This document shows, one piece after another, positions 13,288-38,458 of a stretch of DNA of 64,000 nt. How positions within the stretch are numbered: the first letter of the stretch is position 1; each line of letters starts with the position of its first letter. Below the pieces are notes generated by a model. The model was not told the origin of the DNA. It ran no database searches and saw only the letters and a list, made by a program, of their open reading frames with translations. Origin of the DNA: Phoenix dactylifera (lineage: Eukaryota; Streptophyta; Magnoliopsida; Arecales; Arecaceae); contig NC_052402.1 of the NCBI RefSeq assembly GCF_009389715.1, forward strand, positions 20,778,956-20,842,955, read 5' to 3'. Position numbers and translations under genes: made by a program.

Positions 13288-13375
13288 CAATAAGATCAAA
13301 CTATACTCAAACCAATACTTGTTAAATTTAACTTGCATCTCTCTAACCATATCAACCATAAAATCATATGGGCCA
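13288..13375 (-). pseudogene. hAT-B transposase fragment (central part), stranded by later insertions
   Basis: Read on the minus strand this encodes PYDFMVDMVREMQVKFNKYW, which continues without a gap from the hAT-B frame ending LIETANG just right of 34,354. The matching part of the hAT-A transposase reads LKKFNKYWSQC. The two pieces are now 21 kb apart because array A inserted between them, leaving the 5-bp duplication GGCCA at 13,371-13,375 and 34,355-34,359. The left edge is cut by hAT-A. Confidence 0.85.
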
Positions 13376-13508
13376 TGTGAGGCCCAATAGTCCCACATCG
13401 GAAAGACTCGTTCTAGAGCCTGGGCATATGAGGCGGGTGTCTCCTAATCCTGCAGACGCATTTTGGGTGGAAAACAAAATCGGGAAGGGGTGAAGGATGC
13501 TTGCGTGA

Positions 13509-13974
13509 AGCATCCTCGAAAAGAAGAGAAGTAAAATTTCAAGAGGGGGACTTTGTATTCTTAAAAGTTTCACCCTCGAAAGGTGTTACAAGATTTGGAA
13601 GACATAGTAAATTGAATCCTCGCTACATTGGACCCTTTGAGATTCTTTCCAGAGTAGGGGAGGTTGCTTACAAACTAGCTTTGCCACCAGAGTTATCCAG
13701 TGTGCATAATGTCTTTCATGTTTCTCTTCTACGGAGATACATTCCTGATCCCAGCCATATAGTACAGCACGAGCCCCTGCAGATTGATAGAGACCTGATT
13801 TATGAAGAGTATCCTTTACGCATCATTGATCATAAGGAGCAGGTCCTGAGGCGACGTATCATCCCCTATGTGAAAGTTCAGTGGAGCAACCATTCGGAGA
13901 GAGAGGCCACATGGGAACTTGAGGAGGATATGCGAGCAAGACATCCGCAACTCTTTGAGAATACAGGTATGTAA
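13509..13974 (+). pseudogene. Chromodomain Gypsy polyprotein, C-terminal fragment (integrase end plus chromodomain)
   Basis: The frame gives KRREVKFQEGDFVFLKVSP, then PRYIGPFEILSRVGEVAY, NVFHVSLLRRY and PYVKVQWSNHSEREATWELE before the stop at 13,974. These are the integrase C-terminal GPF/Y module and the chromodomain of Tekay/Del-type Gypsy elements. Everything upstream (gag, protease, RT, RNase H, integrase core) is missing: the sequence switches from TRIM LTR to Gypsy near 13,509. A purine tract (AAGGAGGGGAGAA) and the Gypsy LTR follow directly, as at a normal Gypsy 3' end. Confidence 0.9.
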
Positions 13975-16628: not shown

Positions 16629-17167
16629 TTTAGTGGTATCAGAGCCGAGGACGGCTCTTGTCCGATGGTGGGAAGGGTGTGAGGCCCAATAGTCCCACAT
16701 CGGAAAGACTCGTTCTAGAGCCTGGGCATATGAGGCGGGTGTCTCCTAATCCTGCAGACGCGTTTTGGGTGGAAAATAAAATCGGAGAGGGGTGAAGGAC
16801 GCTTGCGTGAAGCCCCGAAACCGGACAATATCTGGCAGGGGAGCCCCGCGGTCCCCCCTCATGTGGCCCCCATGTGGGCACTGGGTGCCTCACGTGCTCC
16901 GCAGAAGCAGGGGCGTGATATTGGTGTGAGGCCCAATAGTCCCACATCGGAAAGACTCGTTCTAGAGCCTGGGCATATGAGGCGGGTGTCTCCTAATCCT
17001 GCAGACGCATTTTGGGTGGAAAATAAAATCAGGGAGGGGTGAAGGACGCTTGCGTGAAGCCCCGAAATCGGACAATATCTGGCAGGGGAGCCCCGCGGTC
17101 CCCCCTCATGTGGCCCCCACGTGGGCACTGGGTGCCTCACGTGCTCCGCAGAAGCGGGGGCGTGACA

Positions 17168-17213
17168 TTTGGTATCAGCGCCGAGGACGGCTCTTGTCCG
17201 ATGGTGGGAAGGG
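17168..17213 (+). other. Complete internal region of the TRIM-like element (46 bp)
   Basis: The whole body between two LTRs is 46 bases. It opens with a variant of the tRNA-Met primer site (TTTGGTATCAGCGCC; other copies have TGGTATCAGAGCC). Then comes a short inverted repeat, GCCGAGGACGGC, and it closes with a purine-rich tract before the next TGTGAGG. Confidence 0.85.
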
Positions 17214-18929
17214 TGTGAGGCCCAATAGTCCCACATCGGAAAGACTCGTTCCAGAGCCTGGGCATATGAGGTGGGTGTCTCCTAATCCTGCAGACGCGTT
17301 TTGGGTAGAAAACAAAACCGGGAAGGGGTGAAGGACGCTTGCGTGAAGCCCCAGAACCGGACAATATCTGGCAGGGGAGCCCTGTCACGCCCCGAACCCG
17401 AACCTAGGCCCGGGACGCGCCAGACGCCGCACACCCGCACGGCGGACCGCACGGGCGTGCAAGGCTGAATAATCAGACACTCAAGTCACAACATCAGATC
17501 ACAATATCAATACTAAAAATCTATCATTTATGATAATCAAATCAACAATTCAATTTCAAATGTCTCAAATAAAGTTGATAACATTTATTTACAAGATCAA
17601 TTACTTATGACAAAATGAATCTAAATCTATCTATGTCCAGTGTCATAAGTCCTCTCCTCCCGAATTCCCCATCAATCATCTCCTGCAATTATGTCAAAAA
17701 CAGGTATGAGCTACAACAGCTCAGTAGGTAACAACATGCATAAAGTCACGATAACATGTATTAAAGCATATGCAATATAACTACAGGTCATGTGCACAAA
17801 TAAATATGATGATCCGCAAACCAATCCGATACTCAAGTAATATATATATATACCATCTCAGTCTATCATATCACGCATAACATAATCCACAGATCAAACC
17901 GCATGACTACGGCCACATCACCCAGTGGCATGGTCACACCAAAGTGTCAACACTCTGCTCCAAATGGAGCCCTGCACCGCAGTGCTGCACCCCAGGGTGC
18001 CCAATCTCTGCTCCTCAGAGCATGCTCCGCAGAGCCAAAACACCCCATAGTGCCGGAACTAGTTCCTCATACAAGTCGACAGGGCCAACGTTTCCACCCC
18101 ATTGGCGGAAATCCTAGACAATAATCACGCGGTCTCCAAAATCACATCCACAATTTCCAACAATCAAACTTAATATAAACATAAGTTTTCAAAACCAATA
18201 TCTACATAATAGATTTTCAGATGATCAATTTCCAGTCAAAAACATGCTTCTAAATAATAATGATGCCAAGAATATAAAACATATCAATATGCTGGAAATA
18301 ATCATACACATATGCATAATACATGTAAATCATACTTTGAGCAAGATTACCTACCTGGGCTCGCTTAAAAATCCCTGCCACAGATATCACGAACCCCTGG
18401 TTAAACATAAATATTAATTATTTAATTAACTAAGAAACATAATTTAAATTATTCCCAATTCCTTAAATTTCTAAGTTCATGGATCCAAGAATGGGCCCCT
18501 AAGATCAGACATAGACCCTAAGAACAGGTAAACCAAAACCCCAAAAATCAGGATCCTTTAAATCCAAAACCAATTGTAGCCCAAAACAGATTAGGCCCAA
18601 TTGAACCAAACCAGATTCAGGTCCAGATCAGATCTCAGGCCCATACCAAACCAGCCCACAGATCCAATGAGGTTCAACTCAGCCCAACACAGATTCTCCA
18701 ACCCAACCCAAACCAGATTTGATCAGACCAGATTAGATCAAATCCTGATGAATCAGTTTATACTCACACCAGGCTAACCCAAATTCCTGACTCAGGTTCA
18801 GACCCTAACCAAAACCCATTCACTCCAACTCGGATCAAACCCTATTCACAGCATAGGTGAAACCGGTTCACAGTTTGAACCCGGTCCAAGATCTGGTTCA
18901 CAAATCAAGCACGGAAATCGATGCAAGGA

Positions 18930-19320
18930 AAAACACCCAGCCGGAAGAAGAAGAAGAAGAAGAAGAAGAAGAAAAAGAAGGAGAAGAGGAAGAAGAAGGA
19001 GAAGAAGAAGAAGAAAGAAAGAAGGGGGGGGGTGGCTGGTGGCTCCGGTCGGCCCTCGACGGCCGACTGTGGCCCTCGACGGCGGCGCTCGGCCCGCCGC
19101 CGTCGGCCATCCCACTGTCACAAGCCGAGCGGAGGAAGAAGAAGAGAAGAAAGAGAGGAAGAAAGGGAGGAAAGAGAGGGAGACCGGGGCTGGAAGCCCG
19201 GCCCCCGTTCACCCACCTCCGGCCGAACTGTTTCGGCCGGATTGACCCCGGCCGGCCACCGTCGGCCGGCTGCATCTCACAAATCTTCCCCGAAACAGGG
19301 GAAGTGCAAGCGGTAACATC
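18930..19320. other. Purine-rich and GC-rich core of the G2 3' LTR
   Basis: A run of AAG/GAA units (18,945-19,030) leads into GC-rich DNA with inverted GGCCG/CGGCC motifs. The same block recurs in the other LTR at 33,515-33,890, with a length change in the adjoining G run. Long frames on both strands here come from skewed composition and are not genes. Confidence 0.7.
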
Positions 19321-20344
19321 ACTCAATCCTCCCCCCCTTAAATCAAAAAAAGAAACAAATAGATGATTGTCTTCCTCACCTCCGGTCGTCGACGATGAAC
19401 CCCGACGGCGTTGGCGGCTCCGGTGACGACTACGGCTCCGACGATTTTGACAAAGAGGGAAAACGAAGAGGAAGGGATGGGAAAGGGATGGGGCTCGGAT
19501 GAGGCTCTCAGAGGAGAGAAAGAGGGAGAGAGAGAGGGAGAGGGAGAGGGAAGAGGGAAGAGGGGGGGTGGGGCGGAGATCTCGCTGGCCGTTCGGCCGG
19601 CGTGGTCTTCGTGGGGAGACCATGAAGTGTTGGGAACCCGCCCATGCCGCTGATATTTCAAAAATTAATTAGATGGCAGCGGAAGAGGCATGTGCGGGAT
19701 CGACGTTCATCGCATGAACGTTGTTTCGAGACCTTTCGTAATTAGGTAAGAATTAAGAGTTTTAAAACTATTAGGAAGATCAGATCTTCACCTTGCGCGG
19801 GTAGATGATCACCGCAAATCTGAATTCGTGGTTTTGGAAGAGGGTTCGCTTGAAGCCGTTCAAACGTCCGGCCTCTACGGGTATCCACACGAAGCAGGAT
19901 CCGATCCAAGCTCTCTATCTCACCGGGGTGCTAGCTCCCTTGCAGAGATAGCTTTGATGGCTGATGTCCTCCCTCTCAATCAACTCTTGATTGTGCTTGG
20001 AAGGAGGAAGAAGAAGGATGAAGAAGAGGAAGAAGATGAGCCCCTATGCAGCCTTCTGCTGTTCCTTGCGTTGGATGAAGGAAGGGAAGGGAAAGGAAGC
20101 CGCCAACTCTTGGCTTTTCTTCTCCCTTTGCTTACGGCTGAACCAAGAGGAGGAGAGGGGGCTTCCACGGCTTGAAGAGGAGGAAAAAGATTCAACCTTG
20201 AGGGGGGCCGGCCCTAGTCCTCCTTTTAAAGTGAGTGGAGCTCCTAACAATTAGGAGCTCCATGATAACTTACCAAAGAAGGGGCGCCGGCCCTAGCTCT
20301 TCATGTCGCCCTAGCCAAGTGGAGAGGGGCTGATGTCCCTCTTA

Positions 20345-20806
20345 CTTGGTTAACCTAATCCTCTTCCAAAGAGGATTAGGTGCCTCTCTCATGGTTTAAT
20401 CCCAATCCAACTAGGATTAGCCAATTGGGTTCAATCTATGCTAGTCCTAATCCAATTAGGACTTGAATGAACCATGACTCAATTGAACTCTTCAATCCTA
20501 ATCCAATTAGGAGTCATGTTGATTCATTAGATTAATAATTAATTTAGACTTAAGGAATCCTAATCCAATTAGGATGTATTTAATTTTAGTCCTAATCCAA
20601 TTAGGACTCTATTTGAATCCGAAGTCCTAATCCAATTAGGATTTCTAGGAATCCTACTCCAAGTAGGAATCCAATTTTAATTCAAAATTCCTAATCTCAT
20701 TAGGATTGTAGGAATCCTATTCCAAGTAGGAATCCCAGTCCTACTCCAACTAGGATTTCCAGTCCTAATCCAATTAGGACTCTAGGAATCCTACCCGAAG
20801 TAGGAC
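20345..20806. repeat. Array of about 13 short palindromes in the C1 LTR
   Basis: The motif TCCTAATCCAATTAGGA and variants (TCCTACTCCAAGTAGGA, TCCTAATCTCATTAGGA) recur about every 20-40 bp. Each is an inverted repeat of seven bases around a 2-3 base centre. The series starts with a longer hairpin whose arms are CCTAATCCTCTT and AGAGGATTAGG. The other LTR has the same array at about 28,177-28,637. Confidence 0.85.
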
Positions 20807-21977
20807 TCTTGTTTCAAGTCCAATTAATTAATTCCCTTTGTTCCTTTCTTCAACTTCTTATCAATCAAGTTGATTACTTGTGATTCCTAATCACGATTTC
20901 AACCATCGGATCGGTCAATACTTCTAGTGTGTGTGACCCCATAGGTTCTATTCTGACTGGTAGTGAGAAATATTGTGATCTCTATCTCAATATCATTGAA
21001 AACTCCTTTCAATGGGTTGGAACGATTCCAACTCAACTCATTAGGGTTTATCGATCATCAAGATAATCCCTATGAGTCCCACCATCCACCAGTGACACCT
21101 AGCAGCATGTAGTGGCTACCCAGCAGAATGGAATGATGAACCTCTAGGTGCAGTTAACATGTGATACAGTCCTACTATCGTGGATCCCTACAGGACGGAG
21201 GTCATGGACAACTCGTCAAACCCCATCGTCTGTCATATGTCAAGATTTATTCGACTCGAGTTCGATAGTGGAAAACTCTTTCTCCACTTTATATTACTGC
21301 CCTGGCCAAGGTCTTAGAACTCAGTCTAACAAATCACATAGGATCACTCCTCTTCTATCAAGGTCGATAGATTCCTTATAGGTGCATACCCTACTCCTAC
21401 AGTGAACCTACTGCAGCCAATCTACACTGCATGGACCCATATGGCTAGAGACCATGTATGTGTGCAGTCAAACTACAATAACCTCACTGTGAGTAGCCGA
21501 AGCACCGCAGGTCAAAGGACCAGTCACACTACTGCAACATCAAGCAAGTCACTGACGAGTGGATAGACATCCAAGTGACTTCTTGTCTTGGTCACGCTCA
21601 GTACCCTTGTTCTCTAACAAGCACCTACACTATCACTTCAGTGTCCCTACACTGTGGACTCAAGTCTCGTCCATCCAGAAGAAAAGTGATCTGTGCACTG
21701 ATCGGATCGATCACCGTCCTCGTGATGATCCATTGATCAGGAGCATTTAGAAATTAATCACCAATGATACATGGCTCAAATTCTCAACTCTTGAGAATAT
21801 GTATCATCATCTTATTAATTCCTTGGACGATTCATAGACACATAAATAATATGAATGAAAAGATGCCTTTTATTTATTCAATAATAAACAGTCAAGTACA
21901 AAATTATGTCTCTAGAATCAACAATGTGTCAGCCAAATTGGCTTCTAGGGCATACATCTAACAATCTCCCACTTGCA

Positions 21978-23546
21978 CTAAAGCCAATTGGTCATATATC
22001 TTAGGCCCATCTTCTCAAGGTGGGCTTCAGTCTTTTGCTGACTCAGCTGCTTAGTGAACGGGTCTGCCACGTTATCCGCGGAGTCTACTCTCTGCACCTC
22101 TACATCATAGTCGCGTATGAAATGGAAGCGCCGCTCTATGTGCTTGGACTTCTGATGAGACCATGGCTCCATAGCTAGTGCTATGGTGCCAATGTTATCG
22201 CAGTAAAGTGTTATGGCATCTGATGACATTACACCTAACTCTGCAATTAACTTTTAATCAGAAGGTTTCTACTGCACCCTTAGATACGGCTTAACATTCA
22301 GCTTCTAAGGTAGAATCTATAATGATCGGTTGTTTGGAACTCTTCCAATTTACTGAATCACAATTGCAGATATTCTGATGTAGACTTTCTATCATCAATA
22401 TGTGTGCATCCTTCTACATTCAACTCTGATCTTCTCCCAAAGACCAAGAACATGTCCTTAGTTCTTCTCAAGTACTTAAGACTGTTCTTCACAGCTATCC
22501 AGTGCTTCTTGCCTGGATCCAACTGATATGTGCTTGTGACACTCACAGCAAGAGCTATATCAGGTCGTGTACACAGCATGGCATACATGAGGCTTCCTAT
22601 TGCCGATGCATAGGGAATCTTGCTCATGCGTTGAATCTCTTCAGATGTGTTGGGGCACATCTTCTTGGAGAGATGAATTCCATGCCTTAGGGGTAAGAGA
22701 CCCCTCTTGGAGTTTTCCATGCTGAACCTCTTCAGCACCTCCTCTATGTACATCTTCTGTGAAAGGCCAAGCATCCTTTTAGATCTATCTCTATAGACCT
22801 TTATTCCCAAAATATAGGATGCTTCCCCAAGGTCTTTCATGGAGAATTCTTTTTGACAACCAGACCTTGACCGAGGTTAGCATGGGAATATCATTCCCAA
22901 TCAGGAGAATGTCATCTACGTACAGTACGAGAAAAACGACAGCACTCCCACTAACCTTTTTGAAAGCACACGGTTCCTCTTCGTTTTTGATGAAATCAAA
23001 CATTTTGATTGCGTCATCGAAACGAGTGTTCCAACTCCGAGATGCTTGCTTTAGTCCATAGATGGACCTTTGCAGCTTGCAGACCTTGTGATCTCCATCA
23101 CTGGAAGTGAAACCCAAAGGCTGTTCCATATAGATGTCTTCATTAAGATATCCATTCAGGAAAGCAGTTTTCACATCCATCTGCCAGATTTCATAATCAT
23201 GAAATGCTGCAATGGCAAGCAGTGTTCGGATGGATTTCAGCATGGCTACAGGTGAAAAGGTCTCCTGATAGTCAATGCCTTCGCGTTGACTATACCCTTT
23301 CGCCACCAGCCTTGCCTTAAAGGTCTCTACCTTTCCATCCGAACCTATTTTCCTTTTGTAGATCCATTTACATCCAATAGGTACAATACCTTCTGGTGGA
23401 TCTACTAAGGTCCAGACTTGGTTGGAATGCATGGAGTCTAACTCTGACTTCATAGCTTCCAGCCATTTCTCGGAATCGATATCAGATATCGCCTCGTTGT
23501 AGGTTTTGGGATCCTGTATGTGATCCCTATCTTCCACTAGGAACAT
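21978..23546 (-). pseudogene. C1 pol, reverse transcriptase and RNase H part, broken
   Basis: In frame with the upstream gag-integrase frame but cut from it by one TAA stop at 23,547-23,549. RT motifs include KWIYKRKIG, FKARLVAKGYSQ, KTAFLNG and catalytic YVDDILLIGND. Near 22,850 the frame shifts at an A run: KVWLSK ends one frame and KDLGEASYILGIKVY continues in another. The RNase H part (22,000-22,420) has several further stops and small losses; the end is readable as DAITLYCDN, SHQKSKHIERRFH and DNVADPFTKQLS. It cannot make an active enzyme as it stands. Confidence 0.93.
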
Positions 23547-25904
23547 TTACTCGGTATCCTCTTCTAGTATACCTAAGTATCTATCGGGAGGATGGGAGGC
23601 CCTACTAGATCTACGAGGTGGTTGAGGGACATCGTGTACTGGCTCTTTATGAATGGGTTCAATAGGATCCATGACTCGTTGCTTTTCAGAGACTTTCTCT
23701 TCAAGCTCAATTTTCCTCCCACTGCCTCTATCAAGGATAAACTGATTTTCCAAGAAGATGGCATGACGGCTCACAAACACATTGTGATCCTCTGAGACGT
23801 AAAAATTGTATCCTAATGACTCTTTAGGATATCCTATAAAACGAGCACTTATGGTCCTAGCCTCTAACTTGTCCGCCTGTAGTCTCTTGACGTGGGCCGG
23901 ACATTCCCAAATCTTGAGATGACCCAGACTTGGTTTCTTACCATGCCATATCTCATACGGTGTGGTAGGAACAGATTTAGAGGGAACTCTATTCAATAAA
24001 TAAATTGCTGTGAGTAAGGCATCTCCCCAAAGGAATATAGGTAAATCAGTGAAGCTCATCATGGACCTGACCATGTCCAACAGGGTCCGATTCCTCCTCT
24101 CTGACACCCCGTTGAGTTGAGGTGTACCCGGAGGTGTCCATTGTGAGACTATGCCGTTTTCTTTGAGATAGTCCCGGAATTCTCCACTAAGGTATTCTCC
24201 TCCTCGATCTGATCGAAGAGCCTTAAGAGGTTTTTCAGTTTGTTTTTCTACTTCATTCTTGAACTCTTTGAACTTTTCAAAAGACTCAGACTTGTGTCTC
24301 ATAAGATACACATACCCATACCGCGAATAATCATCGGTAAAGGTAATGAAGTAAGAATAACGTCCCCTGGCTAGCACATCGAATGGGCCACATACATCTG
24401 TATGTACTAGGGTAAGTATTTCAGTGGTCCTCTCCCCATGTCCTACAAAGGGCAGTCTAGCCATTTTTCCTTGAAGACAGGACTCGCAAACTGGATATGA
24501 CTCAGAAGTCAATGAGCCTAAAAGCCCATCTTCATCCATTTTGTTCATTCTGTCCTCTCCAATATGGCCAAGCCTGAGGTGCCACAAATATCTTTGGTTT
24601 ATCTCATCTCTAGATCTTTTGGATCCTTTGGCACTCACTTCTTGCTCGGTAATATTCACAGATACATCCATATGTAAATGATAGAGACTGTCGATCATGA
24701 AACCACGTGCGACTATTTTATTTCTTAAATAAATAGAACAGCAGTCTTTGTTAAATGTAAAAATATGACCTTCCTGTGCTAGAAATGAAACAGAAATCAA
24801 ATTTCTGCTAGCAACAGGTACATAATAGCAGTCTCTAAGTATTAAACTAAATCCAGACGGTAGTCGCAGATGGTAGGTGCCCACAGCCACAGCAGCAACT
24901 TTTGCCCCGTTGCCAACCCGAAGGGTTACCGCACCTTCCGCCAGCCTTCTACTTTCCTTTAGACCCTGCATGGTAGTGCACAAATAAGCACTAGAACCAG
25001 AATCTATAACCCAACTAGAAGTAGAAGAAACCGTTAGATTAGTTTCAATTATGAGCAAGTCTATACCTTCTGAAGGTGTGTCACCTTTCTTGTTCTTCAG
25101 GCTTTCGAGGTATGAAGGACAGTTCCTTTTCCAGTGGCCTTCGACATTGCAGTGGAAACATTTTTCTTTGTCGTTAGCCTTTTTCTTTTGAACTTCCTTC
25201 TTTGGCTTCTTGTCTTTCTTCTGCTTCTTAGCAGGCTTCTTTTTCTTCCAAGTAGACTTTCTCTTGGAACTAGAAGTCAACTCAGCAGCAAGGACATTGC
25301 CCCTTGAACCTTTCAAGGCTCCCTCAGCAGTTACCAACATGTTTATGAGTTCAGTCTTAGTGCATTCAATCTTATTCATGTGGTAGTTTACTATAAACTG
25401 ACCAAATGAATCAGGAAGTGACTGTTGGATCAAATCCACTTGTAATTCCTTGTGCATGTCCATACCGAGCTTCTCAAGCTCCTCTAGGTCCTTGATCATG
25501 GTCAGACCGTGATCATGGACAGACTGCCCCTCGCGCATCTTCATTTTGAAAAGCCTCTTGGACACTTCAAAACGAGCTGTGCGACTCTGCTCACCATACA
25601 ACTCTTGCAGGTGTGCTAGTATGTCCCTAGCAGTCTTCATATTTTCATGCTGGCATTGGAGTTCATTTGACATGGATGCCATCATATAGCATTTTACTCT
25701 AATGTCATCATCCAACCACTTTTTATGCATCTCACGCTGAACATCAGTAGGACGTGTTGGTAGTGTGGGGATATCTGAATCGAGTATGTAGCCTATTTTC
25801 TCACAGTCCAAAACAATTTTGAGGTTTCTAAGCCAGTCTTTGTAATTGGTTCCGGTCAGTCGGTTGGTCTCAAGAATACGGGTCAAAGGGTTTGAAGCCG
25901 ACAT
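23547..25904 (-). CDS. C1 gag-protease-integrase open frame (785 aa)
   Basis: ATG at 25,904. Residues 1-200 are the UBN2-type Copia Gag. A lysine-rich linker follows, then a CCHC zinc knuckle (C249, C252, H257, C262). The protease active site is DSG (301-303). The integrase zinc-binding module has H442, H447, C473 and C476. The integrase core triad is D503, D566 and E602, with 35 residues between the last two, as usual in retroelements. The frame is open throughout and ends at a TAA one codon before the RT part resumes in the same frame. Gag and integrase could therefore be made while RT and RNase H cannot. It packages and inserts retroelement DNA. Confidence 0.93.
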
Positions 25905-27444
25905 TGTATCTGCAGAGAGTAAAGATTCTAGTTAGACTTTTGTACTTGATCCTAATCTGTTCTAAGGTCTTTTAGGACAAATGTAACTCCCACTATTTTC
26001 TCGAATCCCTCACACTCCCCTGGTAGGAAAACGGAAATCCTACGCGACTAGGGTTTCTAGTGGGTACTGCGGTCCCACCAATTTACATGCCACCTCACCT
26101 AACAGTTATTGGTGACACATAGATGGATGAGTGTACAACTCTTGTACAATGCTTCTCAAGCATGTTGCAGTGTAACTTGGTCTCTAAGCCATGAAGACCT
26201 CACCTAACAGTTATTGGTCCCATTTCTTAGTTAAGTCAGACCCACCGTATAACCGTAGGAATAAAGTCGTCATTGGGTCCTCACCTAATAGTTATTGGTG
26301 CCCAACCCCACCTTTACCCTACAACATCTCATGTCTATAGAGAGGTCCAGCCCCCCGATGCAACTTGACCACTGTGTCCGGCCGAGACAAATCAACATCA
26401 GAAAAGCCTTAGCAGCTCTACTACAGTGGAAGACCTATTGACTTAATATTGGTTAATCAGGTCTTAGTGTTTGCAACTTGAGCCCTTCATAAGAGGTAAT
26501 CGAACAATTGGCCAGGTAAGCAGGTGGGAGGCTCCCCTTACTCAGAGAGTAAGGTCCTAATTAAGTAACCACCTTTCATGCTTTCCTAGACACCAATTAG
26601 ATCAATTAATCTAATATGACTTGCTCATGTCGGTTCACTCTCGACTTGATTGAGGAGGTTTTGATTTAGGTCTCAATTGGGTTTGCTACATCACATGTAA
26701 ACCTATCTACCCGACTCGCATTCACATCTCATGCAAACGGTACATCACAGGCAGTTATAATCGCAGCATCAAATAAAGTTAAACTTTAAATAGGTGATGA
26801 TCATGGATTCTAATTAGGTCGTATTACAAGCACATGCACATCAATCGATCAAGTGGTCTTCAACTCTTGAATTGGTTCTAAGCCTCCTTGATTCGATCCT
26901 TGATTAACTCTTGATCCCATCGCCATCAACCGCTTAGATCACCTTTCATCTCATGCCTTTGCTTCAACTTGATCGTTGATGTACATCACATCACAGAAAT
27001 ACAACCAGATGTAAAATAAAAATAAAAATAAATTACATCTCCTTTTAGGAGGCACGCAGGCCTCTCAAAACATCAAATAAGATGCATGCAAGCATCTGAA
27101 AAATTACATGACATCGCAGATCACATCGCAGGTCATTATATTTGATACCAAAAGGGTTTGAATCCTATGATCATCACCGTATGCAACAATTATAATTTTC
27201 AGATCTGAAAACTAACTGATTGTATCATGACATAGGTCGCTGATCATGCTAATCATGATTCTAAACTTTATAATCCCATTAACAATGCATTTAGAATCAT
27301 CTTTTTATCACATAAAAATCAGCATGCAAAAATCAGCACCCCTGAAAAATCTGCATGCAGAATTTTTCAGCATGCATGATCATTCAATTTTCAGATCTAA
27401 TATGCCTTTAGATATTTAATTCTTACCTTAATCTACGAAGCCTA
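25905..27444 (-). other. C1 untranslated leader between primer site and gag
   Basis: About 1.5 kb without a coding frame, unusually long. It holds three copies of CTCACCTAACAGTTATTGGT (near 26,093, 26,199 and 26,279, the last with one change), spaced about 80-106 bp. This is where packaging and dimerisation signals would lie; that role is inference. Confidence 0.7.
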
Positions 27445-28176
27445 GGCTCTGATACCACTGTTGGGAACCCGCCCATGCCGCTGATATTTCAAAAATTAAA
27501 TCAGATGGCAGCGGAAGAGGCATGTGCGGGATCGACGTTCATCGCATGAACGTTGTTTCGAGACCTTTCGTAATTAGGTAAGAATTAAGAGTTTTAAAAC
27601 TATTAGGAAGATCAGATCTTCACCTTGCGCGGGTAGATGATCACCACAAATCTGAATTCGTGGTTTTGGAAGAGGGTTCGCTTGAAGCCGTTCAAACGTC
27701 CGGCCTCTACGGGTATCCACACGAAGCAGGATCCGATCCAAGCTCTCTATCTCACCGGGGTGCTAGCTCCCTTGCAGAGATAGCTTTGATGGCTGATGTC
27801 CTCCCTCTCAATCAACTCTTGATTGTGCTTGGAAGGAGGAAGAAGAAGGATGAAGAAGAGGAAGAAGATGAGCCCCTACGCAGCCTTCTGCTGTTCCTTG
27901 CGTTGGATGAAGGAAGGGAAGGGAAAGGAAGCCGCCAACTCTTGGCTTTTCTTCTCCCTTTGCTTGCGGCTGAGCCAAGAGGAGGAGAGGGGGCTTCCAC
28001 GGCTTGAAGAGGAGGAAAAAGATTCAACCTTGAGGGGGGCCGGCCCTAGTCCTCCTTTTAAAGTGAGTGGAGCTCCTAACAATTAGGAGCTCCATGATAA
28101 CTTACCAAAGAAGGGGCGCCGGCCCTAGCTCTTCATGTCGCCCTAGCCAAGTGGAGAGGGGCTGATGTCCCTCTTA

Positions 28177-28637
28177 CTTGGTTAACCTAATCCTCTTCCA
28201 AAGAGGATTAGGTGCCTCTCTCATGGTTTAATCCCAATCCAATTAGGATTAGCCAATTGGGTTCAATCTATGCTAGTCCTAATCCAATTAGGACTTGAAT
28301 GAACCATGACTCAATTGAACTCTTCAATCCTAATCCAATTAGGAGTCATGTTGATTCATTAGATTAATAATTAATTTAGACTTAAGGAATCCTAATCCAA
28401 TTAGGATGTATTTAATTTTAGTCCTAATCCAATTAGGACTCTATTTGAATCCGAAGTCCTAATCCAATTAGGATTTCTAGGAATCCTACTCCAAGTAGGA
28501 ATCCAATTTTAATTCAAAATTCCTAATCTCATTAGGATTGTAGGAATCCTATTCCAAGTAGGAATCCCAGTCCTACTCCAACTAGGATTTTCAGTCCTAA
28601 TCCAATTAGGACTCTAGGAATCCTACCCGAAGTAGGA
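28177..28637. repeat. Palindrome array, second C1 LTR
   Basis: Same array as at 20,345-20,806, with one or two base changes. It begins with the CCTAATCCTCTT hairpin and ends near CCTACCCGAAGTAGGA. Confidence 0.85.
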
Positions 28638-29924
28638 CTCTTGTTTCAAGTCCAATTAATTAATTCCCTTTGTTCCTTTCTTCAACTTCTTATCAATCAA
28701 GTTGATTACTTGTGATTCCTAATCACGATTTCAACCATCGGATCGGTCAATACTTCTAGTGTGTGTGACCCCATAGGTTCTATTCTGACTGGTAGTGAGA
28801 TATATTGTGATCTCTATCTCAATATCATTGAAAACTCCTTTCAATGGGTTGGAACGATTCCAACTCAACTCATTAGGGTTTATCGATCATCAAGATAATC
28901 CCTATGTGTCCCACCATCCACCAGTGACACCTAGTAGCATGTAGTGGCTACCCAGCAGAATGGAATGATGAACCTCTAGGTGCAGTTAACATGTGATACA
29001 GTCCTACTATCGTGGATCCCTACAGGACGGAGGTCATGGACAACTCGTCAAACCCCATCGTCTGTCATATGTCAAGATTTATTCGACTCGAGTTCGATAG
29101 TGGAAAACTCTTTCTCCACTTTATATTACTGCCCTGGCCAAGGTCTTAGAACTCAGTCTAACAAATCACATAGGATCACTCCTCTTCTATCAAGGTCGAT
29201 AGATTCCTTATAGGTGCATACCCTACTCCTACAGTGAACCTACTGCAGCCAATCTACACTGCATGGACCCATATGGCTAGAGACCATGTATGTGTGCAGT
29301 CAAACTACAATAACCTCACTGTGAGTAGCCGAAGCACCGCAGGTCAAAGGACCAGTCACACTACTGCAACATCAAGCAAGTCACTGACGAGTGGATAGAC
29401 ATCCAAGTGACTTCTTGTCTTGGTCACGCTCAGTACCCTTGTTCTCTAACAAGCACCTGCACTATCACTTCAGTGTCCCTACACTGTGGACTCAAGTCTC
29501 GTCCATCCAGAAGGAAAGTGATCTGTGCACTGATCGGATCGATCACCGTCCTCGTGATGATCCATTGATCAGGAGCATTTAGAAATTAATCACCAATGAT
29601 ACATGGCTCAAATTCTCAACTCTTGAGAATATGTATCATCATCTTATTAATTCCTTGGACGATTCATAGACACATAAATAATATGAATGAAAAGATGCCT
29701 TTTATTTATTCAATAATAAACAGTCAAGTACAAAATTATGTCCCTAGAATCAACAATGTGTCAGCCAAATTGGCTTCTAGGGCATACATCTAACATGAAG
29801 AGCTAACTGAAGTCGGCATCCATTGCCGACTTCAGTTACTTTGGGCCCAGTAACAGGCCCAAATTCAGATCTTTACACTCTAACCAACTAGAAAAAAATT
29901 TCGTCCTCGAAATTAAAACATACC

Positions 29925-30070
29925 TCAATCCGAGAACAAGACAGGAAACTTCTCTCTCATCTCCTCCTCCAGCTCCCAAGTAGCTTCTCTCTTACTGTGA
30001 TTGCTCCACTGCACCTTTACATAAGGAATCGTGCGCCTCCTCAAAACTTGGTCCTTCCTATTTACCACAC
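29925..30070 (-). pseudogene. Chromodomain remnant in the G2 internal region
   Basis: The minus strand reads DQVLRRRTIPYVKVQWSNH, then KREATWELEEEMREKFP, close to the chromodomain end of the Gypsy fragment at 13,860-13,950. It lies right beside the 3' LTR, where a Gypsy polyprotein ends. The rest of the polyprotein is absent, and upstream (plus-strand right) the sequence turns non-coding. Confidence 0.85.
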
Positions 30071-31605
30071 GTAGTAAGTTCTTTTGATCTCCTTCAAAAG
30101 AATTCCAAACTCCCAACCTTGGATTAAAATGCCATAATTATATCCCAAAAAAATTAATTTCTCTTGATTCTACATAGAGATCATAATTGGCTTAATAGAA
30201 ATAGGAGAAATCTTTAGTATCAAATCCTCTTAATATTCTATAATCATTTTTTTTTTCTTTTCTTTCTCCCACATCATTCCAACAAATAAGAGATCCATGT
30301 TAAAACATTCCAAGTCTAAGACCTACCAAGGAATCATCAATCGTAAATGCTAAATTTAACATGCCCAAGATTCTTCCAAAAGTTGTCAACAATAGAAGAT
30401 CCACTGGTGAAAATTACATAGCTACCTTTAGATCATCCATAGAATCAACAACATTCTCCTGAAACTAACTCAAGTATTTCATCATAATGCCTTTTAGATC
30501 AAATATTAATGATCTTAACCAGTTTCAAAATAAGTCAAACCACCAGACTTCCGCTGCACACTCTGATTTAATTCATTTAATTCTCTAAAGTCACAAATGA
30601 TTTCTGACTAAAGTATCACTTTGCATTAAGACTAAAAAACTCCAAATTTCAAATTTCCAAGTAGAACTAGAGCAAAACCTCTAGATCTTTTTGTCCTCAA
30701 TTTATATAGAGTATACTTACCATAACTAACCCCCAATCCTTTTGTCAAGTTTAAGGTCACTACGTGATCTCCACAACCTTCTTAGAATCCAAAAATATCT
30801 AGGTTTAATTTAAAGGGGTAATTCTTGTATTCCTTTAGCAATTTAATCAGAAAATCTATATTGATTTTCCTTCCAACAGAATTTACTTCAAATTCAATGG
30901 GTTAGAACTGTTGAGCCAATATCACTATGAGTAGGAATTAACCCTATCAACCTCCAAATTCTTTTTCACCAAAATTCTTAATGTCTATGATCAATGCTAC
31001 ACATAATAACTCACATAAGCATCTCAAAATCAAAATTTCTACTCAATTTTGTATTTTACAATGACAAAAATTTCTAGTTAGATCATAAACCGAGACTTGA
31101 GTTCAAATTAACACATCCAATAGTCTCCAACAATTATAAGAAAAATTCAGTAGCCCAATCTGAATATACAAATTCAAGTAATTAGAATTCTCCACCAATT
31201 TGCTTACTAGCCCTAAAAATTTAACCCACCAATAGAAATACATCTATTTAAAATATCCAAACATGTCAATACCAAATATAATTTCATATACAGATTTAAC
31301 CTCGAAGAACAATTTGCTTTAATATTATGAAAAATCGTTCTTAGCTCACTCCAATGCTATAATAGATCCATGCACAAACTCTACTCTAATAATTACCAAC
31401 AAAACCAAAAGTACTATTACATCTGCACCCATATCATGTTTGAACTTTCAGATCACTTACACAACATCTAAACATGATATAACTAATATGCCAAGGCTAA
31501 CCTTCCTATACATGCCTTAGGTCTACCCTCTCTTATCATGATCAAAGACAATTTATACTTTCCTTCCACACTCATCGAAAACCAAATCCGATGCATACAT
31601 TTTAT
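30071..31605 (-). other. Non-coding internal region of G2
   Basis: About 1.5 kb of AT-rich sequence with no frame over 60 codons on the element's sense strand. It is closely similar (about 90 percent or more by eye in sampled stretches) to 54,900-56,518 in Gypsy element G3. Shared landmarks are CACGTAGTAAGTTCTTTTGA (CATACG in the other copy), AATTCCAAACTCCCAACCTT and CACTACGTGATCTCCACAAC. This is a conserved non-coding body, as in LARD-type elements. Confidence 0.8.
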
Positions 31606-31927
31606 CACAATGCCCAGTGATCTCACACCTTAAGCACTGAATTTAATTACCATGTCCCAAATGATCATAACCTTAAGCTATGATATATTTCTGTCACGAT
31701 CCCTAGTGATCTTAAACATATGCTCAGATTCCAACTGGTCACATTTTCCAATAAGCTTAAACCTCAAACTTTAATGCCACTAAGGCCACAGTCCCTAGTG
31801 GTCTTAAACCTTAGATTATTATATCATTCTTGTTACAATCTCAAGTGATTATAAACCAAATCTCTGATAGTTTTTCTATCATAATTCTCCACTGATACTC
31901 ACCTGAACATAAACCCTAGGATACCTT
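31606..31927 (-). repeat. Degenerate tandem repeat of 45-47 bp next to the G2 primer site, about 7 units
   Basis: Units start at about 31,606, 31,651, 31,695, 31,740, 31,787, 31,834 and 31,881. Each opens with a CACxATxCC-like block, followed by AGTGATCTTAAACC or a variant. Spacing is regular although sequence is diverged. The series ends just before the primer site. The same series is in G3 at 56,519-56,833. Confidence 0.75.
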
Positions 31928-34359
31928 AACCTTAAGCTCTGATACCAATAAATCTGTCACGCCCCGAACCCGAACCTAGGCCCGGGACGCGCCAGACGCC
32001 GCACACCCGCACGGCGGACCGCACGGGCGTGCAAGGCTGAATAATCAGACACTCAAGTCACAACATCAGATCACAATATCAATACTAAAAATCTATCATT
32101 TATGATAATCAAATCAACAATTCAATTTCAAATGTCTCAAATAAAGTTGATAACATTTATTTACAAGATCAATTACTTATGACAAAATGAATCTAAATCT
32201 ATCTATGTCCAGTGTCATAAGTCCTCTCCTCCCGAATCCCCCATCAATCATCTCCTGCAATTATGTCAAAAACAGGTATGAGCTACAACAGCTCAGTAGG
32301 TAACAACATGCATAAAGTCACGATAACATGTATTAAAGCATATGCAATATAACTACAGGTCATGTGCACAAATAAATATGATGATCCGCAAACCAATCCG
32401 ATACTCAAGTAATATATATATATACCATCTCAGTCTATCATATCACGCATAACATAATCCACAGATCAAACCGCATGACTACGGCCACATCACCCAGTGG
32501 CATGGTCACACCGAAGTGTCAACACTCTGCTCCAAATGGAGCCCTGCACCGCAGTGCTGCACCCCAGGGTGCCCAATCTCTGCTCCTCAGAGCATGCTCC
32601 GCAGAGCCAAAACACCCCATAGTGCCGGAACTAGTTCCTCATACAAGTCGACAGGGCCAACGTTTCCACCCCATTGGCGGGAATCCTAGACAATAATCAC
32701 GCGATCTCTAAAATCACATCCACAATTTCCAACAATCAAACTTAATATAAACATAAGTTTTCAAAACCAATATCTACATAATAGATTTTCAGATGATCAA
32801 TTTCCAGTCAAAAACATGCTTCTAAATAATAATGATGCCAAGAATATAAAACATATCAATATGCTGGAAATAATCATACACATATGCATAATACATGTAA
32901 ATCATACTTTGAGCAAGATTACCTACCTGGGCTCGCTTAAAAATCCCTGCCACAGATATCACGAACCCCTGGTTAAATATAAATATTAATTATTTAATTA
33001 ACTAAGAAACATAATTTAAATTATTCCCAATTCCTTAAATTTCTAAGTTCATGGATCCAAGAATGGGCCCCTAAGATCAGACATAGACCCTAAGAACAGG
33101 TAAACCAAAACCCCAAAAATCAGGATCCTTTAAATCCAAAACCAATTGTAGCCCAAAACAGATTAGGCCCAATTGAACCAAACCAGATTCAGGTCCAGAT
33201 CAGATCTCAGGCCCATACCAAACCAGCCCACAGATCCAATGAGGTTCAACTCAGCCCAACACAGATTCCCCAACCTAACCCAAACCAGATTTGATCAGAC
33301 CAGATTAGATCAAATCCTGATGAATCAGTTTATACTCACACCAGGCTAACCCAAATTCCTGACTCAGGTTCAGACCCTAACCAAAACCCATTCACTCCAA
33401 CTCGGATCAAACCCTATTCACAGCATAGGTGAAATCGGTTCACAGTTTGAACCCGGTCCAAGATCTGGTTCACAAATCAAGCACGGAAATCGATGCAAGG
33501 AAAAACACCCAGCCGGAAGAAGAAGAAGAAGAAGAAGAAGAAGAAAAAGAAGGAGAAGAGGAAGAAGAAGGAGAAGAAGAAGAAGAAAGAAAGAAGGGGG
33601 GGTGGCTGGTGGCTCCGGTCGGCCCTCGACGGCCGACTGTGGCCCTCGACGGCGGCGCTCGGCCCGCCGCCGTCGGCCATCCCACTGTCACAAGCCGAGC
33701 GGAGGAAGAAGAAGAGAAGAAAGAGGGGAAGAAAGGGAGGAAAGAGAGGGAGACCGGGGCTGGAAGCCCGGCCCCCGTTCACCCACCTCCGGCCGAACTG
33801 TTTCGGCCGGATTGACCCCGGCCGGCCACCGTCGGCCGGCTGCATCTCACAAATCTTCCCCGAAACAGGGGAAGTGCAAGCGGTAACATCACTCAATCCT
33901 CCCCCCCCTTAAATCAAAAAAAGAAACAAATAGATGATTGTCTTCCTCACCTCCGGTCGTCGACGATGAACCCCGACGGCGTTGGCGGCTCCGGTGACGA
34001 CTACGGCTCCGACGATTTTGACAAAGAGGGAAAACGAAGAGGAAGGGATGGGAAAGGGATGGGGCTCGGATGAGGCTCTCAGAGGAGAGAAAGAGGGAGA
34101 GAGAGAGGGAGAGGGAGAGGGAAGAGGGAAGAGGGGGGGTGGGGCGGAGATCCCGCTGGCCGTTCGGCCGGCGTGGTCTTCATGGGGAGACCATGAAGAG
34201 CTAACTGAAGTCGGCATCCATTGCCGACTTTAGTTACTTTGGGCCCAGTAACAGGCCCAAATTCAGATCTTTACACGCCCCGTGTTCCCCCCTCATGTGG
34301 CCCCCACGTGAGCACTGGGTGCCTCGCGTGCCTCGTAGAGGCGGGGGCGTGACAGGCCA

Positions 34360-35146
34360 TTAGCAGTCTCTATCAATTTTCTATAAATCTCCCACACCCT
34401 CCTAAAATAAATGTTTGCTGTTGGATGCTTACTAGCAGAAAACTGATTAGTCACATCATAAAACACTTTCAAAAACTTATGAAGAATAGCAACTTTTTCC
34501 CACTCTTCTTCAGAAAGTGCAAAGATTCTAAATTCTCTATCACGATGTCCCCAGTGATCTAAAACAGCCTTAAAATAAAGAACACGGTCCAGCATTAAAA
34601 AAGTAGAATTCCATCTAATACAACAATCAGAACGCAATCTTTTTCTAGTATTCCAATGAAAACTTTTTTCAGCAATTTCATAAAACTTCTTCTTCTTTGG
34701 AATTGAATTTTTCAAATGCTTGGCCACATTTCTAATCTTACAAACAACACCATCAATGAGATTCAGACCAGCTTGCACAATAAGATTTATAATATGGCAG
34801 CAACAACGAATTTGAAAAAAATCAACACCATGCAAGAGAGATTTATTTGCAAGAAGACGAATCTTGAGAGAAATAGCCATGGTATTATTATAAGATGCAT
34901 TATCCAATGTCAAGGTAAAAACCTTACTATCAATTTTTCATTGAGCCAAGCATAAAGCAACCTCATAGTAATAGAAAGCCCATCAAAGGGAGGGGGGGTT
35001 AACGCTACAAATCTAATTATTCTTTTTTGCAACTTCCAACTATTGTCCATCCAATGTGCTGTGATGCAAATATATTCATCTTGTGTGTTATCATTTTTTC
35101 AATTATCAGAAGTCAAACAGATTCTCCCTGGTGCTTGTGCTAACTC
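34360..35146 (-). pseudogene. hAT-B transposase, middle part
   Basis: The minus strand reads DEYICITAHWMDNSWKLQKR, a stop-broken stretch, then TLDNASYNNT with the likely catalytic aspartate, CCCHIINLIVQAG and RWNSTFLMLDRVL, ending in LIETANG at array A. It is a relative of the intact hAT-A transposase but with stops and at least one frameshift near 34,930-35,000. The right edge is cut at the AACTC duplication by array B. Confidence 0.9.
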
Positions 35147-36254
35147 TGTCACGCCCCCGCCCCCTCGGGGCACGTGAGGCACCCAGTGCCCATGTGGGGG
35201 CCACATGAGGAGGGACCGCGGGGCTCCCCTGCCAAATATTGTCCGGTTTCGAGGCTTCACGCAAGCATCCTTCATCCCTCCCCGGTTTTGTTTTCCTCCA
35301 TAAATGCGTCTGCATGATTAGGAGACACCCGCCTCATATGCCCAGGCTCTAGAATGAGTCTTTCCGATGTGGAACTATTGGGCCTCACACCATTTCTACC
35401 ATCGAACAAGAGCCATCTCGGCTCTGATACCAAATGTCACGCCCCCACCTCCTCGGGGCACGTGAGGCACCTAGTGCCCACGTGGGGGCCACATGAGGAG
35501 GGACCGCGGGACTCCCCTGCCAGATATTATCCGATTTCGGAGCTTCACGCAAGCATCCTTCACCCCTCCCCGATTTTGTTTTCCTCCCAAAACGCATCTG
35601 CAGGATTAGGAGACACCCGCCTTATATGCCCAGGCTCTAGAACGAGTCTTTCCGATGTGGGACTATTGGGCCTCACACCCTTCCCACCATCGGACAAAAG
35701 CCATCCTTGGCTCTGATACCAAAAGTCATGCCCCTGCTTCTACGGAGCACGTGAGGCACCCAGTGCCCACATGGCGGCCATATGAGGGGGGACCGCGGGG
35801 CTCCCCTTCCAGATATTGTCCGGTTCCGGGGTTCACGCAAGCATCCTTCATCCCTCCCCGGTTTTGTTTTTCTCCCAAAACGCGTCTACAGAATTAGGAG
35901 ACACCCGCCTCATATGCCCAGGCTATAGAACGAGTCTTTCCGATATGGGACTATTGGGCCTCACACCCTTTCCACTATCGGACAAGAGCCGTCCTCAGCT
36001 CTGATACCAAATGTCACGCCCCCACCTCCGCGGAGCACGTGAGGCACCCAGTGCCCACGTGGGGGCCACATGAGGGGGAAACACGGAGCTCCCCTGCCAG
36101 ATATTGTTCGGTTCTGGGGCTTCACGCAAGCGTACTTCACCCCTCTCTGGTTTTGTTTTCCACCCAAAATGCGTCTGCAGGATTAGAAGACACCCGCCTC
36201 ATATGCCCAGGCTCTGGAACGAGTCTTTTCGATGTGGGACTATTGAGCCTCACA
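35147..36254 (-). mobile_element. TRIM-like array B: four LTRs and three internal regions in tandem, with TSD
   Basis: LTRs: 35,147-35,389, 35,435-35,677, 35,724-35,965 and 36,012-36,254, each 242-243 bp. Internals: 35,390-35,434, 35,678-35,723 and 35,966-36,011, 45-46 bp each. The primer site reads GCTCTGATACCA on the plus strand (35,421-35,432 in the first internal). The perfect 5-bp duplication AACTC lies at 35,142-35,146 and 36,255-36,259, and hAT-B coding sequence continues on both sides. The whole 1,108-bp concatemer therefore occupies a single insertion site. LTR copies differ from one another by several percent. Confidence 0.95.
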
Positions 36255-36259
36255 AACTC

Positions 36260-36534
36260 CTCCTTCACAACATTCATTTCATCCATGTAATATTTCAATG
36301 CATCTCTCCTAATAGTACGCATGCTCATGGTTTTGTATTGAGGACACATAACAGATACCATATATTTAAAATAAGGTTCCTCACAAGTTGTAAAAGGATG
36401 TGCACCAGCAATAATAAACATACAAATAGCTCTACGAATTTCTTCCGGATCAAACTTAGGATTTTTCGAATGCAAAACTGGGACAGCATACTTACCCTGG
36501 GGGTACACAGAGTCTTCAATAAGTACATTGACAA
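36260..36534 (-). pseudogene. hAT-B transposase, N-terminal third after the zinc finger
   Basis: The minus strand reads FDPEEIRRAICMFIIAGAHP, FTTCEEPYFKYMVSVMCPQY and KYYMDEMNVVKEEF. It corresponds to the hAT-A stretch with RKILAKFIICAELPFRIVEH. The frame is open here. It runs into array B at the AACTC duplication. Confidence 0.9.
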
Positions 36535-36782
36535 ATTAAGTCATTCTTAAATAGCCGAAAACATAAGCAGACTGATATCCTCGGGCTGAGGAGTGTCCAC
36601 ATGAGTTTGTTGAGGTGTCTACATGTCTGTGGCCCTCTTTTCTATTCTATCGAGAGTTCGGAGGAAGAGGAGAGGGAAGGAGGAAGTTTACGACCGACTT
36701 CCCAACTTACCTTATCGGACTTTCATATCTACCTCGAATGAAACTTGATCTCCAGGGTAGGTCGGTCATAAGAAATTTTCGA
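36535..36782. other. Unassigned segment inside hAT-B
   Basis: About 250 bp separating the hAT-B zinc-finger part from the rest of its transposase. It is GC-richer than its surroundings and may be a small insertion or an intron. No clear ends or duplication are visible. Confidence 0.35.
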
Positions 36783-37097
36783 CTAGTTAGTGTTAAGCAT
36801 ATGGGTGCTTCCAGAAGTTGTGGTTTCAGTTGAAATAGTGTAATTCCTTATGTTATGATGAAAACGTTTAGAACATCTTTTTAAGTAGCGCCATATATGA
36901 GATGTACCATTCTTAGAAGCAGTTGAAAAAATCTTCTTGCAATACTTGCATTGTGCTTTTAATATATCCTTATCTTCTGTTGGAAGCTTGACCATGTGCA
37001 TCCACACCTTTGATTTTGCTTTACTATCCTTGACATAACAATCCTCATGCTCATTATCCACCACAGGAATAGGTGAACTTTCGCTTGCCATTGACAT
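36783..37097 (-). pseudogene. hAT-B transposase, BED zinc-finger exon
   Basis: Starts MSMASESSPIPVVDNEHEDC and continues with KVWMHMVKL and a zinc finger CKYCKK, GTSHIWRYLKRC. This matches the C-x2-C plus late histidine pattern of BED fingers, although the final histidine region is altered. It ends at a stop at 36,783-36,785. Confidence 0.85.
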
Positions 37098-37660: not shown

Positions 37661-38458
37661 GCCCAGGCTCAAAGGACTTTCTAGCCGATGTAGGATTAAG
37701 GAGCCTCACAATCCACCCACCATCAGACCAGAGCCGTCCTCGGCTCTAATACCAAATGTCACGCCCCGCCTGCGCAAGACACGTGGCCATCAAGTGTGCC
37801 TCCACGTGGCGCCACATGAGGGAGAACACGGGGCTCCCTTGCTAGATATTGTCCGGTTCTGGGGCTTAACCCCTCTTCGGTTTTGCTTCTCCCCAAAACA
37901 CGTCTACAGGATTTGGAGACACCCGCCTCATATGCCCAGGCTCAAATGACGCTCTAGCTGATGTGGGATTAAGGAGCCTCACACTGTAATGTCATGCCCT
38001 GCCTGCAGGGGGGCATGTGGCCATCAGGCCCACATAAGGGGGAACACGGGGCTCCCCTGCTAGATATTGTCCAGTTCTAGGGCTTAACCTCTCCTCGATT
38101 TTGCTTCTCCCTAAAACACGTCTACATAATTTGGAGACACCCGCCTCATATGCCCAAGCTCGAAGGACGCTCTAGCCGATGTGGGATTAAGGAGCCTCAC
38201 ACTCCACCCACCATCGGACCAAAGCCGTCCTCGGCTCTGATACCAAAAGTCATGACCCACCTGCGCAGGGCGCGTGGCCATCGGGCCCACATGAGGGGGA
38301 ACATGGGGCTACTTTGCTAGATATTATCCGGTTCTGGGGCTTAACCCCTCCCCAATTTTGCTTCTCTCCAAAACACATCTACAGAATTTGGAGACACCTA
38401 CCTCATATGCCCAGGCTCAAAGGACTCTCTAGCCGATGTGGGATTAAGAAGCCTCACA
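37661..38458 (-). mobile_element. TRIM-like array C, a second subfamily with shorter LTRs
   Basis: A partial LTR (37,661-37,710) is cut by hAT-B. Then come internal 37,711-37,756, LTR 37,757-37,983 (227 bp), six bases CTGTAA, LTR 37,990-38,201 (212 bp), internal 38,202-38,247 and LTR 38,248-38,458 (211 bp). The primer site GCTCTGATACCA and purine tract match arrays A and B. The LTRs differ clearly (ends GATTAAGGAGCCTCACA, body GCGCCACATGAGG), so this is an older or separate subfamily. Confidence 0.88.

Follow-up and report, generated by a model that had tools for sequence, protein, structure and literature searches.

Arrays in which the LTRs and internal regions of TRIM elements alternate in tandem have already been published under the name TA-TRIMs, and the array described here is a further example of them. 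According to the portions of the survey by Gao et al. 2016 (PMC4717578) that are used here, TA-TRIMs were found in 35 of the 43 genomes, with 129 subfamilies; nine TRIM subfamilies are listed for date palm, one of the genomes surveyed. Three other systems are drawn, likewise, from parts of the respective papers: Wukong, a maize TRIM of 532 bp with 230-bp LTRs, where three to seven LTRs were counted at 15 of 89 intact elements and most of the multi-LTR elements have TSDs (Liu et al. 2015, PMC4528315); Cassandra, whose LTRs carry a 5S rRNA-like sequence with a pol III promoter and whose long tandem arrays have been ascribed both to recombination and to template switching (Kalendar et al. 2020, PMC7215508); and the tandem LTR retrotransposons of rice, where the authors leave the mechanism open (Morales-Diaz et al. 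2025, PMC11899658). An insertion with three LTRs, bounded by a TSD and made before integration, has been described by Sabot and Schulman 2007 (PMC1950507).

The window, i.e. the whole stretch of 64,000 nucleotides of the date palm genome that we have analysed, contains an array of this kind, to which we refer as array B (35147-36254, minus strand): four TRIM LTRs alternate with three internals, and Tandem Repeats Finder reports one tandem array (period 288, 3.8 copies, score 1719). Listed from the 3'-most unit in the element sense, the array consists of LTR1 (35147-35389, 243 bp), internal 1 (35390-35434, 45 bp, with the PBS match at 35421-35432), LTR2 (35435-35677, 243 bp), internal 2 (35678-35723, 46 bp), LTR3 (35724-35965, 242 bp), internal 3 (35966-36011, 46 bp) and LTR4 (36012-36254, 243 bp), which is 5'-most; the sequence AACTC is located on both sides, at 35142-35146 and 36255-36259. 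The first-pass annotation was right about the four LTRs, the three internals, the flanking AACTC and the coordinates, with LTR lengths of 242-243 bp and internal lengths of 45-46 bp. In the element sense, the LTR reads TGTGAGG...GTGACA and is followed by TT and then by TGGTATCAGAGC, which we take to be a PBS of the initiator-Met tRNA type; GGGAAGGG precedes the next LTR. The 243-bp LTRs, and the 45-46-bp internals with their PBS-like and purine-rich stretches, which are too short to code, are those of a TRIM, a class of non-coding elements that stay below about 1-1.5 kb and have direct LTRs, a PBS and a PPT. A TA-TRIM has at least three LTRs and at least two internals in tandem; array B, of the form L4I3, is therefore a TA-TRIM, and its element a non-autonomous LTR retrotransposon. 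A lone LTR-internal-LTR of the same family measures about 532 bp, as is seen at loci L026 and L047, in agreement with the monomer size expected from the window.

The comparison of the flanks with a paralogous copy of the surrounding hAT sequence (L064, 401 bases, elsewhere in the genome) has revealed the empty site: both flanks align at about 95%, and the paralog continues across the insertion site with AACTC present once, where the window has it twice; because of this single copy, we regard array B as an insertion at one target site, with AACTC as its TSD. The hAT setting that had been proposed for the array is also borne out by dispersed paralogs of this stretch in the genome and by Pfam scans of three minus-strand fragments, one of which yields a hAT-like RNase-H match (E 0.0011, below the Pfam cut-off) and the second a zf-BED match (E 1.9e-5), the third having no match. 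A nested insertion has been ruled out, as the LTR-internal-LTR pattern is regular throughout, and so has a repeat artefact of the assembly, as the units differ at 20-34 sites. Next to the array, at 36477-36804, a 328-bp stretch that is missing from the hAT paralogs matches three separate places on contig C2390 at 95-99%, and looks like filler DNA from an organelle genome.

Array B probably reached its site in the hAT copy through a single integrase reaction, having been assembled into a concatemer beforehand. The relatives of the array elsewhere in the genome indicate, at the level of sequence, that concatemers of this family form before integration, since the family includes inverted arrays bounded by TSDs, junctions between LTR ends and a TSD-bounded chimera with another element. 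Of the two origins offered in the first-pass annotation, integration of a multimer and later expansion, the former, towards which the annotation leans, is supported at this level, i.e. for the family with its inverted halves, U5...U5 ends, scars and TSD-bounded chimera. It falls short of proof for array B itself, which carries neither a scar nor an inversion and could have grown in place, as could other plain head-to-tail arrays.

The family was located through its internal/LTR junctions, for which a 41-base pattern has 742 matches genome-wide with up to three mismatches, and the reversed control has none. The 100 exact matches that were listed group into 64 loci, and the first 20 of these were fetched without choice by structure: 13 hold at least three LTR pieces, six hold two LTRs (one of them cut short) and one holds an LTR with an inverted fragment, in a sample that is biased to arrays, since arrays contain more internals. 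Further loci were taken from a similarity list, with long arrays chosen deliberately; hence, the other counts given here are not frequencies. The 46 loci and the window together provide 53 LTR clusters. In 43 of these, the termini are intact and the flanks can be read; 25 of the 43 are bordered by perfect 5-bp TSDs, which vary in sequence, and the flanks of three more match at four of five positions. Thus, the family has several copies with different TSDs, as is expected of TRIMs, whose TSDs measure 4-6 bp. Among the clusters with at least three pieces, intact termini and readable flanks, perfect 5-bp TSDs are found in 20 of 32 (in 9 of the 11 multi-LTR arrays within the first 20 loci). The remaining 12 comprise nine that continue, on the U3 side, into internal sequence or into the element X that is introduced below, L049 with a 4/5 match, and L022 and array C with unmatched flanks (1/5 in array C). 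Array C is a diverged, related TRIM array of the window (37661-38458, minus strand), 67-74% identical to array B over the aligned stretches, with an LTR-TTACAG-LTR junction.

Of the arrays with inverted parts, all eight that have at least three pieces and intact ends are bounded by perfect 5-bp TSDs, and four of the eight (L004, L035, L040 and L050) have U5 on both ends. Since a monomer ends in U3 on one side and in U5 on the other, we infer that the U5...U5 arrays were built before insertion, and termini of this kind next to a TSD should not arise by later LTR recombination of a monomer. At L030, which consists of an inverted fragment and one LTR, the flanks match at four of five positions. 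In the TSD-bounded array L052, a palindromic junction of 36 bases (1386-1421) is derived from the PBS and joins two U5 ends tail to tail; it may be a record of fold-back synthesis.

A second class of evidence is found where one LTR directly follows another. We have searched the genome for the exact LTR end, followed by 0-14 bases and by the exact LTR start, and have found 31 sites; the reversed control gave none. The spacers end in GG at all 31 sites, begin with T at 23 and with TT at 21, and are distributed as TTTGG (8), TTGG (5), GG (4), TTAGG (3), TTTTGG (2) and nine singles; the TTGG spacers of array A and of L032 are outside this count, as they miss the exact pattern, and the TTACAG spacer of array C, unlike the 31, lacks the GG end. 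The layout of the element has TT between the LTR and the PBS and GG before U3; thus, TTGG is the product that is expected of two blunt, untrimmed cDNA ends. The third T of the longer spacers corresponds to the first PBS position, as if one base of the tRNA had been copied. Such copying would have a parallel in retroviral two-LTR circles. For such circles, an origin by NHEJ is given in the portions of PMC9324142 and PMC3148978 that bear on them. The exact U3-U3 junction is found at a single site genome-wide, with the spacer CCGG, matching the prediction for joined cDNA ends; the predicted U5-U5 junction has no exact site in a genome-wide search with 12-base flanks. The eight TTTGG spacers could alternatively be deletions of the internal at a microhomology of three bases, by which TTGG, GG and TTAGG are not so simply explained. 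Three of the arrays that bear such junctions are bounded by TSDs, namely L032 (TSD GTTGT, spacer TTGG), L027 (TSD ACCAA, spacer TTTGG) and array A; the other two that were examined are L054, a truncated array, and L057, the flanks of which do not match. A literature search of partial coverage found no title or abstract on LTR-LTR end junctions inside integrated TRIM arrays, which leaves their absence from the literature unproven.

The third class of evidence is the joining of TRIM sequence to a different element, as seen in array A of the window (plus strand). Array A had been described as a TSD-bounded multimer; the TSD stands, with GGCCA at 13371-13375 and 34355-34359, and the enclosed unit (13376-34354) is longer than the LTRs, being a chimera of TRIM and an element X. 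It begins with positions 1-139 of a TRIM LTR (13376-13514), fused to the 3' end of the X pol (13515-13974), and continues with the X LTR of about 2.6 kb (TGATAACC...GTGACA, 14012-16628) and with TTTAG, the PBS and the TRIM internal (16629-16677), the junction between X and TRIM being at the PBS; upstream of this first internal, the X segment ends with GATCCGGATTTGGGGCGTGACATTTAG before the PBS. There follow a TRIM LTR (16678-16920), the TTGG spacer (16921-16924), a proposed scar of cDNA end-joining, a second TRIM LTR (16925-17167), an internal (17168-17213) and the last TRIM LTR, which is split into two parts (17214-17382 and 34277-34354) and ends in GTGACA. Two domains are encoded in the upstream part of X, namely the C-terminal SH3-like domain of an integrase (E 3.1e-28) and a chromodomain (E 5e-6), and because of them we label the element a chromovirus, presumably of the Ty3/gypsy type. 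The later insertion that splits the last LTR (17383-34276, 16.9 kb) has direct repeats of 2.2 kb (99.3%) at its start and near its end, and a second pair of 2.3 kb (99.4%) inside; because of the two pairs, it is not a plain LTR element.

Array A is not the only chimera of this kind. The X-type LTR-PBS occurs at 68 sites genome-wide (up to two mismatches), and the X-type LTR is joined to a TRIM internal at the PBS at 18 sites (up to three mismatches, the window included), with none in the controls. At L039, an X fragment separates an inverted TRIM array from a TRIM LTR, and the whole is flanked by ACCAT, so that X chimeras bounded by a TSD are found at two places, array A (GGCCA) and L039 (ACCAT). 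L044 and L059 carry the full start of the X LTR and may be DNA-level fusions, because their flanks are unmatched (ATGTG/CATGA and ACCTG/AAATC, respectively). At L041 and L058, a second foreign sequence, which looks like the U5 end of another LTR, lies upstream of the first TRIM LTR and is fused at the PBS to a TRIM internal; given these two loci, X may not be the sole partner of the TRIM. An assignment of this foreign LTR to the 16.9-kb element in the window has been ruled out, as the match is confined to 58 bp at the end of that element.

Within array B, the pairwise differences amount to 20-34 of about 243 positions, gaps counted, with LTR1-LTR2 as the closest pair (20) and 30 for the outer pair, LTR1-LTR4. 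In a tree of 66 LTRs, LTR3 joins the LTRs of array A (98/93), LTR1 is weakly paired with LTR2 (71/68) and LTR4 is placed elsewhere. In the comparison of LTR phylogeny within and between arrays that had been proposed as a check, the tree does not unite the four LTRs of array B, but their union in a single clade is not rejected (p-AU 0.113). Neither is the corresponding constraint rejected for any of eight other arrays (p-AU 0.10-0.40). Two two-LTR loci, L026 (0.34) and L028 (0.40), behave in the same way, their LTRs being unpaired in the tree; at L043 and L023, the two LTRs are paired, as they should be. LTRs of 243 bp hold too little phylogenetic signal. Shared transversions set LTR4 of array B apart from LTR1-LTR3, and a separate lineage for LTR4 (transversion columns 94 and 189) was considered and dropped, as two-LTR loci show similar discordance: at family transversion sites, adjacent array LTRs are discordant in 128 of 688 comparisons and loci with two full LTRs in 9 of 59 (p 0.60; 12 control loci, three of which, WIN.1, L031 and L037, are parts of longer structures). 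The nearest relative lies outside the own array for 79 of 173 LTRs, with 20 ties, a weak argument, as old, star-like copies would show the same. Non-CpG differences are 7-12% between the LTRs of array B, as against 13 of 392 between the hAT copies, but for transversions there is no clear difference (3-8 of about 243, as compared with 7 of 400); the non-CpG gap, taken alone, would suggest that the units were already different at insertion.

It is unlikely, in our view, that a two-LTR monomer was inserted at AACTC and then expanded in place by unequal LTR recombination between sister chromatids or homologues. The plain head-to-tail order of array B agrees with such an expansion, as does the fact that its closest LTRs are neighbours; neighbours are also closer in L054 (mid-p 0.02) and L058 (0.08), as local duplication predicts, and the relevant portion of PMC11899658 describes a rice locus at which tandem, single and solo-LTR alleles occur. 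However, across 29 arrays (full LTRs on one strand, partial pieces dropped), neighbours are on average no closer than non-neighbours (mean mid-p 0.57, 0.5 being expected), and expansion in place does not account for the inverted halves, the U5...U5 ends with TSDs, the LTR-LTR end junctions and the chromovirus chimeras of the sister arrays; with every pair of array B at least 20 differences apart, any expansion would have been early.

A single canonical cycle, in which the template is switched once from R to R between RNAs packaged together, or in which one multi-LTR transcript is copied, would leave the outer LTRs identical at insertion (Sabot and Schulman 2007), and we give this route very little credence for array B. 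Outer pairs of the predicted closeness do exist, e.g. in L042 (2 differences between the outer LTRs, as against 15 on average from these to the inner one) and L006 (0 against 5), and the outer pair is strictly closest in five of nine three-LTR arrays and tied in one, but five of nine is no clear excess over one in three. The outer pairs are no closer on average in the 29 arrays (mean mid-p 0.56), nor in the 20 arrays of at least four LTRs (0.65); the outer pair of array B is not its closest, which speaks against a single cycle, and leans toward being no closer than the inner pairs. The same measurements bear on a resident monomer that gained units through integrase-independent recombination (single-strand annealing) with TRIM cDNA. 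Such recombination would keep the one original TSD and add units of other origin, and integrase-independent insertion has been described as creating tandems and suggested for plants in the pertinent part of PMC12786077; yet the resident outer LTRs should have stayed closest, which is the case neither in array B nor, on average, in the arrays of at least four LTRs, and neither the inverted arrays that end in U5 twice nor the end junctions are explained, so that this route is improbable.

The integration of a ready-made concatemer, which we prefer, would proceed as follows. Reverse transcription would take place in a particle that contains several short TRIM RNAs, at times also chromovirus RNA. 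The cDNAs would be linked into chains, some of them inverted, both by intermolecular strand transfer, at R and at the PBS that the elements share, and by the joining of finished cDNA ends; integrase would then insert a chain by its two outer ends, leaving one 5-bp TSD. The chains bounded by TSDs, inverted ones included, the junctions of cDNA-end type and the chromovirus chimeras are seen in the anatomy of the family; we infer the co-packaging, the order of events, the joining enzyme and the passage of array B along such a route. We lean towards reading the TRIM arrays of this genome as fossils of pre-integration concatemers of TRIM and sometimes chromovirus cDNAs, linked at the PBS through strand transfer and end to end through the joining of linear cDNA (with the scars TT(T)GG and CCGG), integrase being able to use any pair of LTR ends, even two of the U5 kind.

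The order of the units within arrays was searched for traces of the template. No heterogeneous ordered pair of LTRs (each LTR within three differences, neighbours at least five apart) is shared by two loci among 201 full LTRs, and the recurrence of one LTR order at other loci, by which a multimer might have been recognized, was accordingly not seen. The periodic order that a circular template would give has a combined p of 0.43 over 21 arrays (L020 alone, 0.0185). A cyclic order of LTR types runs across the end junction in L032 (2743-4392, 7-4-0|0-7-4) and in L027 (2796-6032, 1-3-0-1-3|3-0-1); with the 21-array test not significant, the two merely hint at a template that was circular or repeated.

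With junction scars whose form is set by the structure of cDNA ends, the origin of an array becomes testable from genome sequence, without population data. The chimeras with a junction at the PBS indicate that the cDNA of larger elements encountered that of the TRIM, and bear on the question of who mobilises TRIMs; if the arrays are fossil concatemers, chromovirus X would be a candidate for the helper of the TRIM, or for a companion in its particles.

Of the known systems, the three-LTR insertion of Sabot and Schulman (PMC1950507) shares with array B the single TSD (AACTC on both sides, one copy in the empty site) and differs in its highly similar outer LTRs, which are 30 differences apart in array B; end-joined and inverted chains, as in the present family, are absent from that paper. 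The tandems of rice (PMC11899658) are, in the parts concerned, also bounded by TSDs, and the authors argue for a link with a single insertion, but they are large coding elements and are presented there without end-junction evidence. Wukong, likened here by description, resembles the family in size and in its TSD-bounded multi-LTR elements, which the corresponding part of PMC4528315 attributes, unlike our reading, to recombination between elements. Cassandra, as far as the relevant portions of PMC7215508 extend, has head-to-tail TRIM arrays and the PBS TGGTATCAGAGC in common with array B. The passages of PMC4717578 on TA-TRIMs give no array mechanism, junction scars or helper chimeras, in which the present family differs, and describe L3I2 and L5I4 structures and inverted arrays with 5-bp TSDs, to which, by description, the family of array B is closely alike.
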